From positions 1 through 24,846 of the IMG/VR virus record IMGVR_UViG_3300046163_000023: a DNA stretch of 24,846 bases. One strand, given 5' to 3'. Under the pieces are notes generated by a model, which was given only the letters and a program-made list of their open reading frames with translations, had not been told where the DNA came from and did no database searches. Made by a program: the position numbers and the translations under genes. Shown here piece after piece: positions 6,543 through 24,846 of this stretch (within the stretch, counting starts at the first letter, position 1; every line of letters starts with the position of its first letter). This DNA is from a virus.

Positions 6543-7778
6543 ATGGCTTCATTACAAAATAAACAAATAGATCAGTCATATCCTGGTCTAATAAAAACAA
6601 ATGACGAAGCGGCACTAGGTGCTACTGAAAAGGTCATTCAAGATGGTGCAGGTAACAACTCTACATTGAGTATGGGTACTGCATCAGCATCATTCTCAGG
6701 CACACTGGATCTATCTGGTGCGACTGTAACTGGTATAGCTGATACAACATATGATTTAGCTTCAGCTCAAAATGGGGCTAATGCAGACGTTACTTTAACT
6801 GGTTCAGATGCAACTACAGATACTATTACTTTAGCAGCTGGTACTAACATTACATTAACAGACAATGGTTCAAATCAAATTACTATTGATGCTGCTGGTG
6901 GTGGTGGCGCTGCAGGTTTAGAGAGTGGTTCTGGTGCTGATTCTATGCAATCAGCTGCAAGTTTAACTACTAACGCAGCTTCAGCTTCAGCTAATGACAC
7001 TATTGCTATTGGTAATGGTGCATCTGCTACATCTGGTAGTAATATTGCTATTGGTGAGAATGCTAGTGCTGCTGGTGATGACTTCTTTGATAGAGTTAAC
7101 ATTGCTATAGGTAAAAACACAGTAGCTAGCAACGAAAGAAGTATCGCTATTGGTTTAGGAACTGATGCAACAGGAGCTAGAGCTATTGCAATGGGTGAAG
7201 ATGCTCAAGCTACTGGAGGTGGTGACATTGCAATTGGTCAACAAGCAAATGCTAGTCTTGGTAGTTCTGTTGCTATTGGTAAAGGTGCTAATGCAGATGA
7301 AAGAGCTACAGCTATAGGAGTTGATGCTAATGCAGACTCTAAAGAGTCAATCGCAATAGGTGATGGAGCTGATGCAACCTCATTAAAATCAATTGCTATT
7401 GGAGATAATACAACTGTATCTGGTACTTGGGGTGTAGCTATAGGTAAAGACGCCGTAGCTTCAGGAGAACAAGCTGTTTGTTTAGGTGGTAATACTGATG
7501 CAACTGCATCATTATCTTTAGCTGCTGGATATAACGCACAAGCTACTGCATTAGGAGCTGTTGCTTTAGGATTGGATACAGATGCTACCGCTGAAGGTGC
7601 TTCAGCTATAGGAAAAGGTGTACAAGCAACTACTGTTAATACTGCAACTGTAAATCTATTTCAAATTGCTGGATATGCATCAATGAGCTTTGCAGATGAT
7701 ACTGCAGCTGCTGCAGGTGGTATACCTCTAGGTGGTGTATACCATACATCAGGTGCATTAAAGATTAGAATTGCATAG
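6543..7778 (+). CDS. Phage fibre with YadA-head-like repeats (paralogue B)
   Basis: This 411-residue protein shares its first about 65 residues (LIKTNDEAALGATEK, IQDGAGNN, SGATVTGIA) with the preceding gene. Residues about 153-365 are a run of degenerate 14-17-residue repeats of the form SIAIGxxAxA(S/T)G, which is the left-handed beta-roll signature of trimeric autotransporter heads such as YadA. In a phage this implies a trimeric, rod-like adhesive fibre. The C-terminal about 45 residues (FQIAGYASMSF ... HTSGALKIRIA) form a small cap. It is the last gene before the terminator at 7830. The anchor/tip split between the two fibres is clear in the sequence; which virion structure they sit on is inferred. 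Confidence 0.7.
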   Translation: MASLQNKQIDQSYPGLIKTNDEAALGATEKVIQDGAGNNSTLSMGTASASFSGTLDLSGATVTGIADTTYDLASAQNGANADVTLTGSDATTDTITLAAGTNITLTDNGSNQITIDAAGGGGAAGLESGSGADSMQSAASLTTNAASASANDTIAIGNGASATSGSNIAIGENASAAGDDFFDRVNIAIGKNTVASNERSIAIGLGTDATGARAIAMGEDAQATGGGDIAIGQQANASLGSSVAIGKGANADERATAIGVDANADSKESIAIGDGADATSLKSIAIGDNTTVSGTWGVAIGKDAVASGEQAVCLGGNTDATASLSLAAGYNAQATALGAVALGLDTDATAEGASAIGKGVQATTVNTATVNLFQIAGYASMSFADDTAAAAGGIPLGGVYHTSGALKIRIA

Positions 7779-7829
7779 ATATATAAAAGGTAGACTGATA
7801 GCTGCGCTGCTATAAAGTTTATTTAGGCC

Positions 7830-7863
7830 GAAAGGGTATCAGAAATGGTACCCTTTCTTTTTG
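7830..7863 (+). terminator. Intrinsic terminator after fibre genes
   Basis: GAAAGGGTA (7830-7838) and TACCCTTTC (7849-7857) form a perfect 9-bp stem with a 10-base loop, followed by a T run. It ends the 5251-7778 unit. Its T run overlaps the promoter-like sequence at 7861. Confidence 0.9.
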
Positions 7864-7890
7864 AAACAATTTAAAAGATAGATATATAAA
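7861..7890 (+). promoter_or_regulatory. Promoter-like TTGAAACA-N15-ATATAAA, copy 1
   Basis: TTGAAACA (7861-7868) and ATATAAA (7884-7890) are separated by 15 bases. The same two blocks with the same spacing recur at 8062-8091 upstream of the initiator gene. TTTG (7860-7863) to TATA (7883) is 19 bases, close to Bacteroidota -33/-7 spacing. A start a few bases after 7890 would coincide with the first stem of the candidate ncRNA. Confidence 0.55.
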
Positions 7891-8046
7891 CTGTATCAAC
7901 CGTTTTCTTTTTGGTACCAATCACGATTTTGCCATTTTGATCAGGTACCTATTCTTCTAGTTGATTTTTTTGTTTAGGTTGATATAGCTGAGTTAATTCT
8001 ACTCTCAGCAAGGGCGGAGTTTATCGTATTCTTCGCCCTTTTTTCT
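7891..8046 (+). ncRNA. Candidate structured noncoding RNA
   Basis: No open frame was seen here, but the stretch folds well by eye. P1: CTGTATCAACC (7891-7901) pairs with GGTTGATATAG (7977-7987), 11 bp with one G-U. P2 inside it: GGTACC (7913-7918) with GGTACC (7944-7949), extended by ATCA (7920-7923) with TGAT (7938-7941). P3: GCTGAG (7987-7992) with CTCAGC (8004-8009). P4: the terminator at 8010-8046. Only G7987 is contested between P1 and P3. A promoter-like pair ends at 7890, just before P1. So promoter, folded body and terminator are in register for an RNA of about 155 bases. An alternative pairing exists, as GTTGAT also occurs at 7960-7965. The function is unknown; priming or replication control, antitermination or packaging are possible. 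Confidence 0.5.
8010..8046 (+). terminator. Intrinsic terminator before the initiator operon
   Basis: AAGGGCG (8010-8016) pairs with CGCCCTT (8034-8040). The stem is extended by GAG (8017-8019) with CTT (8031-8033), including one G-U, and is followed by six T. Because the fibre operon already ends at 7830-7863, a second terminator 150 bases on suggests that a separate transcript ends here. Confidence 0.85.
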
Positions 8047-8061
8047 GTCTTGACTTTTTTC

Positions 8062-8091
8062 TTGAAACATATTGATATATAGAAATATAAA
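8062..8091 (+). promoter_or_regulatory. Promoter-like TTGAAACA-N15-ATATAAA, copy 2
   Basis: The two blocks and the spacing are identical to 7861-7890. It is the only promoter-like sequence I see before the replication and packaging genes, and it lacks the TATATTTAAT box used before structural genes, so it may be an early or middle promoter read by host RNA polymerase. A TTGACT at 8050-8055 is an alternative -35 element. Confidence 0.55.
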
Positions 8092-8102
8092 GAACAAACA
8101 AA

Positions 8103-8168
8103 ATGGCAATTAAATATAAAAATACGAATTATGAAACGACAATTTTCGAAAGGCTTTATAGCTATTGA
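8103..8168 (+). CDS. Possible 21-residue leader peptide
   Basis: An ATG at 8103 opens a 21-codon frame (MAIKYKNTNYETTIFERLYS plus Y) that overlaps the start of the initiator gene in another frame. It follows an A-rich leader (AAAGAACAAACAAAATGG), a better Bacteroidota start context than that of many genes here, and it lies close to the expected transcript 5' end. It could be a translated upstream frame that tunes initiator synthesis. It could equally be chance in an AT-rich region. Confidence 0.25.
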   Translation: MAIKYKNTNYETTIFERLYSY

Positions 8169-8646
8169 TCAGAGATTATACGACTCTGATTTAGACATTT
8201 ACCACATTAACATTATTTCTTGGATTCTCTCGTATCAAGTACAAGAGCAACCTTTCTTTATGAGTAAAGCAGCACTTGCTGATAAATTCAAGTGCGCTAA
8301 AAGAACTATATACAGAAGATTCGAATATCTTGAGTCATATGGTATCCTAGTTAGAGGTGAAAAATACAAGAAAATGTACAAATATCAGGTTAATATTCAT
8401 AGACTCAATAGGTACCTGTCAGGCACCTATCTTGAAAAACAGGTGCCAGAGAGTCACTCATCTTCTAAAACAGGTGCCTCAGAGTCACCCTATAATACTA
8501 GTACTAATAAAACTAGTTCTAATAAAACTAGTTTTAGAGATGAAGATGATTTTAAATCATCATCTTCATCTAAACCCAAAGCTAAACCTAAAGTGGACGT
8601 TAACAGTCCAGAATTCCATAAATTTCTAAATGATTTAGATATTTAG
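8131..8646 (+). CDS. Winged-helix replication initiator-like protein
   Basis: This 171-residue protein is probably the phage DNA-replication initiator. Residues about 20-95 form a winged helix: IIDW-type opening here ISWILSYQ (about 29-36), FFMSKAALADKFKCAKRTIYRRFEYLESYGIL (about 42-73, helix-turn-helix) and a wing RGEKYKKMYKYQVN. The remainder is low-complexity (three NKTSS-like five-residue repeats, a Ser run, a Lys/Pro stretch) and ends with the short acidic helix HKFLNDLDI, which could contact a host helicase or loader. The middle of the gene carries four AGGTRCC boxes, a tandem 15-bp AT-rich repeat and a large inverted repeat, as in the lambda O gene with its internal origin. It heads the operon. 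A plain transcription regulator is the alternative. Confidence 0.65.
   Translation: MKRQFSKGFIAIDQRLYDSDLDIYHINIISWILSYQVQEQPFFMSKAALADKFKCAKRTIYRRFEYLESYGILVRGEKYKKMYKYQVNIHRLNRYLSGTYLEKQVPESHSSSKTGASESPYNTSTNKTSSNKTSFRDEDDFKSSSSSKPKAKPKVDVNSPEFHKFLNDLDI
8504..8533 (+). repeat. Tandem 15-bp AT-rich repeat
   Basis: Two perfect adjacent copies of CTAATAAAACTAGTT lie here, with a partial copy at 8489-8503 matching at 11 of 15 bases. In frame they encode five-residue repeats (NTSTN, KTSSN, KTSF). Position and composition suit a DNA-unwinding element. Confidence 0.85.
8539..8570. repeat. 12-bp perfect inverted repeat in coding DNA
   Basis: GATGAAGATGAT (8539-8550) and ATCATCTTCATC (8559-8570) are separated by TTTAAATC. 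In the protein this is the EDDFKSSSSS region, so codon choice gives a strong hairpin in a low-complexity segment. Confidence 0.85.
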
Positions 8647-8706
8647 GGCTAAAAGAAACAAAATAAACAAGATACATATAATAACTAAATTAAACAATTA
8701 AACATT

Positions 8707-8850
8707 ATGATACCAAAAGGAAGAACAAGGTTAACTACCCAAGAAAGACAAAGAATACTAAAGTTACGTTTAGATGGCTTTAGTCTACAGCAAATAGCTG
8801 AACAAACAAACAGATCGATAACTTCAGTTAAACGTGTAGTTTACGCATAA
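8707..8850 (+). CDS. Small helix-turn-helix protein
   Basis: This 47-residue protein has the start MIPKGRTRLTTQERQRILKL. Residues about 11-45 read as a helix-turn-helix of the Hin/resolvase or sigma region 4 kind: a first helix QERQRILKLRLDG, then FSLQQIAEQTNRSITSVKRVV with the two DNA-binding helices separated by the turn after QT. It has no catalytic domain and so is a stand-alone DNA-binding peptide. It lies 60 bases after the initiator gene and 19 before the next one, and is probably co-transcribed. A regulator of this operon is a reasonable guess. Confidence 0.65.
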   Translation: MIPKGRTRLTTQERQRILKLRLDGFSLQQIAEQTNRSITSVKRVVYA

Positions 8851-8869
8851 CTAAAAAAAACAATTCAAA

Positions 8870-9217
8870 ATGGCAAACAAGATATTTGATAAAAATTATT
8901 CAAACCAGAGTTTAACTATACCTACATCAATATGGAATGATACTAAAATCCATGGTATAGCTAAAATTATTTTAACTCTAATTAAAGCATTTACCAATCA
9001 AGGTAGTAAAACATGTTATGCTTTAACGTTACAAACTGCAAGAATGTGTCATACACATGAAAAGGATATTAAATACAATATGCAGAAGTTACATGAAGCT
9101 GGACACATTAAACTGTTTAAAGATCCAGATTCGCCTACTGGTTGGTCAATCGAGTATACATATAAAGATATTAAACCATCAGCACCAGACTCATCTGGTA
9201 CGTCAGGATTATTCTAG
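8870..9217 (+). CDS. Winged-helix DNA-binding protein
   Basis: This 115-residue protein has a pattern like that of the 8131 product: a strand near SLTIPTSIWND (about 14-24), a helix GIAKIILTLIKAFTNQ (about 29-44), ALTLQTARMCHTHEKDIKYNMQKLHEAGHIKL as the helix-turn-helix and following helix (about 51-82), and a wing with SPTGWSIEYTYK. The C-terminus is short and disordered (APDSSGTSG). No nuclease or ATPase motif is present. It may be a second replication-organising protein or a helicase-loader-like factor. I cannot tell it from a transcription regulator. Confidence 0.5.
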   Translation: MANKIFDKNYSNQSLTIPTSIWNDTKIHGIAKIILTLIKAFTNQGSKTCYALTLQTARMCHTHEKDIKYNMQKLHEAGHIKLFKDPDSPTGWSIEYTYKDIKPSAPDSSGTSGLF

Positions 9218-9228
9218 ATATATACACT

Positions 9229-9717
9229 ATGAACAAACCAGCACCATTACGAGTTAAAGTACCCTACTGGGCAAAAGATATTGAAGATCAAGGTATACTT
9301 TGTTTAGTAGCCTTTATGTATAAAATATCAGAAAAGTATGGTTATGATACCTATACTATAACTAAAAAAGACGTCAACATGATGGTTGGTACCAGAGTTG
9401 GCAAGACATTAAAAGAATTACATGATAGAGCACCTATACTCAAGTTTTGGTTAAACCTACAATGGACTACATTACATTTTTTACAAGTAAACCTAAAGGT
9501 ATACAGACGTAATTGGAATGAAGAAAACAAAAGTTCAGAGTGGGTTACTATTGAAGATGAAAGAACCATTAGAGTATGGTGTTATATTTTAGGTGCATGG
9601 AGGCATCATCTAATAACAGATGATCCTTTTAAATCATCCATAAAAGCAGCAATGCATAATAATGACCAAAAGTTATTTCAATACTGCGATTATGATGCCA
9701 CTGGCAGAAAAGGTTAA
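9229..9717 (+). CDS. Unknown protein of the replication block
   Basis: This 162-residue protein is not recognised. It begins MNKPAPLRVKVPYWAKD and has a helix EDQGILCLVAFMYKISEKYGYD (about 18-39). ITKKDVNMMVGTRVGKTLKELHDRAPIL (about 44-71) could be a third helix-turn-helix or a winged domain. The rest is rich in Trp and basic residues (VYRRNWNEENKSSEW, VWCYILGAWRHHL), which may bind nucleic acid. It starts 11 bases after the previous gene, and its TAA overlaps the next ATG by one base (TAATG), so translation is probably coupled. Confidence 0.45.
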   Translation: MNKPAPLRVKVPYWAKDIEDQGILCLVAFMYKISEKYGYDTYTITKKDVNMMVGTRVGKTLKELHDRAPILKFWLNLQWTTLHFLQVNLKVYRRNWNEENKSSEWVTIEDERTIRVWCYILGAWRHHLITDDPFKSSIKAAMHNNDQKLFQYCDYDATGRKG

Positions 9718-24554: not shown

Positions 24555-24846
24555 TTATTTCGGTCTATATACTGGGAGTACTGTATTTAACTCTGCTTCA
24601 GTAAATAGACGGTGAGTCATTTCTGCATAATGTTGTTGAAAGCCACGAGCATCTATTTCCCAAGGTGCATTGATATAATCACCTTTATACTCTTCGCCTT
24701 TCCAATTACCAATGAGTTGTTTACCCCAACGCTGACGACGCTCTGTATGTCCAGCATACCAACCTTTATCGTATTGTAAAGCATGTCGCAACTCGTGTCC
24801 AATAGTTTCTAATGCACTTCGAAGTGTCTGACCATAATTAGCAGAG
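24555..24846 (-). CDS. C-terminal part of HExxH metallopeptidase (gene begins at 221)
   Basis: This leftward frame is open to the window edge and ends at TAA (24557-24555). Joined to 221-1 it gives 170 residues. HELRH (about 91-95) is the HExxH zinc site, followed by ALQYDKGWYAGH. PWEIDARGF (about 135-143) lies 40-45 residues on, where its Glu137 can be the third zinc ligand as in gluzincin-type peptidases. The segment between is basic and Trp-rich (RRQRWGKQL). Within the window alone the start seen is a TTG inside the HExxH motif, which is not biologically sensible; the real start is at 221. Possible roles are host takeover, removal of a defence protein, or lysis. The substrate is unknown. 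Confidence 0.8.
   Translation of the reverse strand, partial: SANYGQTLRSALETIGHELRHALQYDKGWYAGHTERRQRWGKQLIGNWKGEEYKGDYINAPWEIDARGFQQHYAEMTHRLFTEAELNTVLPVYRPK

Follow-up and report, generated by a model that had tools for sequence, protein, structure and literature searches.

What lies between the tail (fibre) genes and the replication-initiator gene of an uncultivated virus, in a stretch that had been predicted to encode a structured noncoding RNA, and what might such an RNA act upon? The window analyzed here is the whole IMG/VR virus record IMGVR_UViG_3300046163_000023, of 24,846 bases. Open frames on the minus strand run off both of its ends (1-221 and 24555-24845), which suggests a circular map or a circularly permuted complete genome. 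The frame at the right end (24555-24845, minus strand) holds HELRHALQYDKG, which we take to be a metallopeptidase-like HExxH motif. A DNA search of phage records with positions 6543-9717 of the window returned no similar DNA. By its portal protein the nearest isolate is Nonlabens phage P12024S, at 27% identity, and a marine Bacteroidota host is therefore likely, as judged from this sequence relationship. No match was obtained for the terminase query against genome contigs and no host genome was found, and the initiator protein query against viral contigs gave no confirmed match. A relaxed promoter scan of 16 kb of P12024S detected no clear RNA unit, only three weak pattern matches.

A predicted small RNA gene

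The coordinates of the features are collected in Table 1. Folding of 7888-8046 gives -46 kcal/mol, compared with -26.1 ± 3.25 kcal/mol for shuffled sequences (z -6.1), and none of 200 shuffles is as stable; without the terminator, the RNA retains a z of -4.4. The absence of a reading frame noted in the original prediction holds for the plus strand, where no ORF of at least 20 aa overlaps 7870-8060; four short TTG-start ORFs are present on the minus strand. The terminator said to follow the tail genes just upstream is real (7830-7857). The promoter-like pair of boxes in front of the first stem, TTGAAACA and GATATATAA, keeps the same spacing in most relatives, and the stem begins near the predicted start of transcription, as had been proposed. 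A transcript from P1 would measure about 155 nt if it ended at the intrinsic terminator. A simple sigma-70 scan of the window did not report P1, nor did a terminator scan of the window list the terminator at 8010-8045.

The internal structure agrees with the prediction in most respects. The inner GGTACC hairpin, the GCTGAG hairpin and the terminator all appear in the minimum-free-energy (MFE) structure, with 7928-7933 predicted to be unpaired in the loop of the inner hairpin. The closing stem, given previously as 11 bp (7891-7901 with 7977-7987), is present as 11 nt with 91% complementarity, and ten of its pairs are well supported; the outermost, C7891-G7987, has a probability of only 0.05. 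The suggestion that GTTGAT at 7960-7965 offers a competing pairing, and thereby a switch, failed: forcing this pairing yields -39.2 rather than -46.0 kcal/mol, a cost of 6.8 kcal/mol, and the probability of the alternative pairs is 0.0. A riboswitch or other RNA switch was rejected on this ground, as the competing structure, which was the sole alternative examined, is not of similar energy. With Rfam 15, no match in the window reached the gathering score. The best relaxed match in the window was Termite-leu on the minus strand, at 23.1 bits against a gathering score of 51, and membership in a known Rfam family was thus rejected. Taken with the architecture of the relatives described below, the fold argues for a structured noncoding RNA that possesses a promoter and a terminator of its own, and we regard it as very probable, on the letters of the genome, that 7890-8045 is an autonomous small-RNA gene.

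Table 1 Features of the junction between tail and early genes in the window
Feature	Position	Strand	Evidence or remark
Possible second unit or tail-operon 3' UTR: GATATATA box, TAGCTGCGCTGCTA hairpin, GTTTATTTAGG, tail terminator	7778..7860	+	
Promoter P1: TTGAAACA (7861-7868), spacer, GATATATAA (7881-7889)	7861..7889	+	Conserved spacing in most of 33 units
Predicted small RNA gene	7890..8045	+	Fold z, no plus-strand frame; 5' end predicted about 8 nt past the box
Closing stem, 5' arm	7892..7901	+	Pairs with 7977-7986; pair probabilities 0.87-1.0
Closing stem, 3' arm	7977..7986	+	Pair probabilities; stem at the equivalent place in relatives
Putative antisense seed TTTGCCATTTTGA, inner hairpin	7928..7940	+	Complement of 8865-8877 and (7929-7939) of 8099-8109
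Single-stranded U-rich tract (TTTTTTTGTTTAGG region), where a second contact with the early leader is predicted	7964..7977	+	Duplex prediction; word TGTTTATTT in 13 of 33 units
GCTGAG/CTCAGC hairpin (7987-7992/8004-8009)	7987..8009	+	MFE structure
Intrinsic terminator of the small RNA, AAGGGCG...CGCCCTTTTTT	8010..8045	+	Sequence and MFE
Promoter P2 of the early operon, TTGACTTTTTTC ... GATATATA	8050..8081	+	Layout shared by relatives
Putative target site 1, CAAAATGGCAA	8099..8109	+	Perfect inverted repeat of the loop, 11 nt
Replication-initiator-like HTH gene, first long early gene	8131..8646	+	PHROG 428/270, Pfam HTH_36
Putative target site 2, TCAAAATGGCAAA, at the start of the DnaD-like helicase-loader gene 8870	8865..8877	+	PHROG 186

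The unit in related phages

Relatives were collected by a terminase scan (80 loci) and, among the matches listed, by scans with the P1 or P2 promoter. Because many were chosen by these promoter scans, the frequency of P1 in them is not independent of the selection; the terminase scan and a tally anchored on P2 are more independent of it. The set used comprises 33 units, the window included. Duplicates and near-duplicates were left out (L018, L247, L225, L271, L188, L227, L288, L334, L338, L199 and L217), as were units cut short or with an unassigned leader (L180, L234, L259, L345, L354, L362 and L369). Close pairs remain among the 33 (L172/L173, L027/L284, L161/L358 and others), and less redundant sets of 14 and 25 units were also defined. 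The RNA ends, chosen by visual inspection, run slightly into the terminator in L174, L296, L106, L172, L173, L230 and L286.

The order at the junction in the relatives is tail genes, P1, some 40-140 nt of noncoding sequence, terminator, early promoter and early genes. In the P2-anchored tally, P1 occurs within 600 nt, on either strand, at 17 of 24 early-promoter sites having at least 250 nt upstream, compared with 0.015 occurrences per 610 nt in the remainder of those contigs. Among the seven sites without it, L036 and L106 have a P1 farther upstream, behind a long noncoding stretch; the boxes have diverged in L027, L284 and L216; and L004 and L290 have just 261 and 315 nt of sequence before P2. 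Between RNA gene and early promoter, L036 (300-900), L004 (1-260) and L106 (700-1250) have a long noncoding sequence containing repeated units, which possibly represents an origin.

The expectation that the stems are kept in related phages was borne out: 27 of the 33 units have a 5' helix of 6 bp or longer within 10 nt, whereas shuffles give a mean of 9.8 and a maximum of 15. MAFFT aligned the 3' arms too poorly for pair-by-pair covariation, so the conservation of the stem rests on its position and on the shuffles. The stem sequences themselves are unrelated, as in the window (TGTATCAACC/GGTTGATATA), L036 (GTATATTGAAT/ATTCAATATAT), L106 (GTAACTATTAAAT/ATTTAATAGTTAT) and L353 (GTAGATTAGT/ACTAATCTAC). 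Across the 33 units the mean fold z is -1.95, with p < 0.05 in 16, and the architecture varies between a single closed stem and hairpins in tandem. Nine of the units are encoded, in their entirety, on the opposite strand (L025, L134, L161, L358, L183, L231, L313, L353 and L216). In these phages the unit cannot be an early-operon leader or a read-through element, and a leader, attenuator or read-through role was rejected on account of these inverted units. The terminator loops of four of them (L161, L358, L134 and L353) carry GCCCATTTT or GACCATTTTG, resembling the inner loop of the window's unit; the CCATTTT motif thus shifts from one structural context to another. The inverted units, the possible second unit at 7778-7860 and the antisense match of the loop to downstream starts were all absent from the original prediction.

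Complementarity to the phage's own early leader

The loop TTGCCATTTTG (7929-7939) is the exact complement (11/11) of site 1, and the slightly longer 7928-7940 is the exact complement (13/13) of site 2; a complement of at least 13 nt to a start region occurs in 0.6% of shuffled RNAs (p = 0.006). Among 27 start regions of the window ranked by duplex z, the top three are those of 8131, 8870 and 8103 (entered as 8104). Genes 8131 and 8870 resemble replication-initiation and helicase-loader families. Site 1 contains ATG 8103, which opens a frame of 21 codons running across the start of the initiator at 8131. This frame (8103-8168, MAIKYKNTNYETTIFERLYSY), which is read in another phase than the initiator and begins at the main antisense site, is a possible translated upstream ORF.

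The antisense hypothesis arose once the loop in the window had proved a perfect complement of these start regions, and the inverted nine were examined after that. For each phage the pre-terminator RNA was scored against the translation-start region of the first early gene as a duplex-energy z relative to dinucleotide shuffles of the RNA, and its own leader was compared by permutation with swapped leaders of other phages. Leaders were assigned by simple ORF rules (a minimum ORF length of 40 aa initially and of 60 aa subsequently), except that those of L106 (1325), L142 (335), L009 (7939) and L172 (11883) were fixed by hand and those of 13 later-added units were chosen by reading the sequence. 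The leaders of L106 and L009 were set by hand after their start matches were known; L009 gives no help to the result (z 0.45).

The own leader is preferred in every set: z -1.50 for own versus -0.49 for swapped leaders among 20 units (p < 5e-5), -1.76 versus -0.33 in the less redundant 14 (p < 1e-4), -1.61 versus -0.47 in the inverted nine alone (p = 0.002) and -1.54 versus -0.41 in all 33 (p < 5e-5). The longest perfect complement is likewise longer with the own leader (9.70 versus 8.14 nt, p < 1e-5). The controls gave no signal, whether the RNA was replaced by the stretch upstream of P1 (p 0.16), by the early-gene body (p 0.97) or by its own opposite strand (p 0.71), or the target by the reversed leader (p 0.57), the early-gene body (p 0.98) or the start of a later downstream gene (p 0.64). 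The complementarity takes the form of an inverted repeat in plus-strand units and a direct repeat in inverted ones; it is lineage-specific, and the unit adjoins its target without overlap. The unit, its structure and the lineage-specific complementarity to the leader are supported by computation.

The clearest pair is that of L134, in which GTGATTTGTTTATA of the RNA matches TATAAACAAATCAC of the leader at 14 of 14 positions and TTGCAT faces ATGCAA at the start codon. Most predicted contacts between RNA and leader are A/U-rich and interrupted, and own-leader pairing is weak in at least seven relatives (L036, L173, L009, L183, L231, L025 and L284). The word TGTTTATTT occurs in 13 of the 33 units, compared with 0.8 in shuffles, and is not found in exact form in the window's own unit. 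A GCCA loop acting alone as a universal seed was rejected; exact loop-to-start matches in the relatives are mostly 8-10 nt.

The first early gene varies among the phages, being HTH initiator-like, an HNH endonuclease or without a match, so the thing controlled would be the start of the operon and not one gene; a single conserved target gene across the relatives was rejected for the same variation. In many relatives, for example L011, L012, L002, L019 and L027, an HNH endonuclease gene comes immediately after the early promoter.

Proposed mechanism and alternatives

We favor the reading, with a probability of about 0.7, that the unit encodes a trans-acting antisense RNA repressing early and replication genes. 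P1 would produce the transcript, with its 5' end protected by the stem and its 3' end formed by the intrinsic terminator. The loop or the U-rich tract would then pair with the translation-start region of the early operon, in the window at 8099-8109 and 8865-8877, and by covering start codons would lower the output of the replication initiator and of another replication gene. Such repression could exert feedback on early expression or on genome copy number. Transcription, pairing in the cell, repression, its timing and its biological role are inferred. That fast-evolving RNA immunity or copy control is the purpose, a thought raised by each lineage's RNA matching its own early leader, is a tentative and doubtful proposal. 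If it were true, the RNA of one phage would silence only early genes of the same type (RNA heteroimmunity) or would set the level of replication, and the unit would be a cassette that works in either orientation and evolves its antisense match anew, whichever gene stands first.

It is unlikely that the real targets are host mRNAs and that the leader match is secondary, arising because Bacteroidota starts look alike (A-rich, AAAATGGC). GCCA is present in 15 of 33 RNAs against a shuffle mean of 4.7, and CCAT in 21 of 33 against 11.6, as expected of RNAs antisense to common start codons. When raw duplex energy is ranked along each contig, other places surpass the leader (mean rank 0.36 of windows; 0.53 in the window phage), a middling position that weighs against the favored reading and would also suit host targets. 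The own leader nevertheless surpasses swapped leaders, and the signal is missing at the later gene start; a generic start blocker would not be matched to its lineage.

An RNA acting in cis, as a leader or attenuator in which a read-through transcript folds the RNA back onto the early leader, would fit the window, where RNA and complement share a strand and the complement follows 159 nt downstream. In 9 of the 33 units, however, the opposite orientation precludes a joint transcript and the specificity of pairing persists, and a terminator and P2 separate the RNA unit from the early leader, which makes this explanation quite improbable. Still less credit is due to a DNA feature, a replication origin or initiator operator whose repeats are protein sites: the stretch adjoins an initiator-like gene and the L036-like relatives carry their long noncoding stretch, yet the common invariant in both orientations (inverted versus direct repeat) is complementarity of the RNA, the promoter and terminator are conserved, and the GC skew lacks a clear inflection. 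A structural or packaging RNA of the pRNA kind, located here by chance, would share the closing stem of 5' and 3' arms and the conserved position; against it stand the lack of an Rfam match and the variable architecture, and we consider it highly implausible.

Relation to known antisense RNAs

Most of what is known of antisense RNAs in phages comes from a small number of temperate enterobacterial ones. The c4 RNA of P1/P7 is encoded upstream of its target on the same strand without overlap, as is the unit in the window, and is processed from a precursor of the target operon, whose promoter it shares. P22 sar and its target are transcribed from opposite DNA strands, and lambda OOP lies near replication genes and overlaps cII on the opposite strand. 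An overlapping antisense RNA of the OOP/sar type was rejected here, as unit and target lie side by side. Plasmid RNAI and CopA exert loop-seed feedback on replication, overlap their targets and are perfectly complementary to them; the RNA proposed here would be like them in loop seeds and in replication feedback, and is unlike them in overlap and in perfect complementarity.

The trans-acting antisense RNA that we favor finds its nearest known working mechanism, by analogy, in c4. The review PMC12197685 describes c4, sar, OOP and other phage RNAs, and presents c4 as a trans-acting phage RNA with loop seeds against a phage ribosome-binding region, a likeness to the arrangement predicted here. 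In the same account c4 targets an antirepressor and confers RNA heteroimmunity (PMC12197685). Unlike c4, the present unit has its own promoter and terminator, is separate from P2 and is inverted in 9 of 33 cases, and whereas the target of c4 is ant mRNA, the early genes that stand first here are of the varied kinds given above. Neither release from the target operon nor an ant target was found, and membership in the c4 kind was rejected. Sar blocks initiation of translation of a phage mRNA by pairing (PMC12197685), which for the RNA described here is predicted only, and differs in having ant as its target (PMC12197685). Lambda OOP is similar as a short phage RNA antisense to a phage mRNA, and dissimilar in acting through decay of the target by RNase III (PMC12197685).

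Searches of open-licence papers found nothing on such RNAs in Bacteroidota phages. The units would form a small-RNA family of uncultivated, probably marine Bacteroidota phages in which position is kept while sequence, fold, orientation and neighboring gene change. If the antisense reading is true, phages of this group would routinely use RNA to control early genes and replication of the genome. The co-varying pairs of RNA and leader could then serve directly to examine how antisense pairing is maintained through rapid evolution.

A possible second unit

Upstream of P1, the stretch 7778-7860 may be a second, shorter RNA unit. L231 and L353 keep the hairpin and GTTTATTTAGG without the box, so this stretch may instead be an element of the tail-operon 3' UTR.
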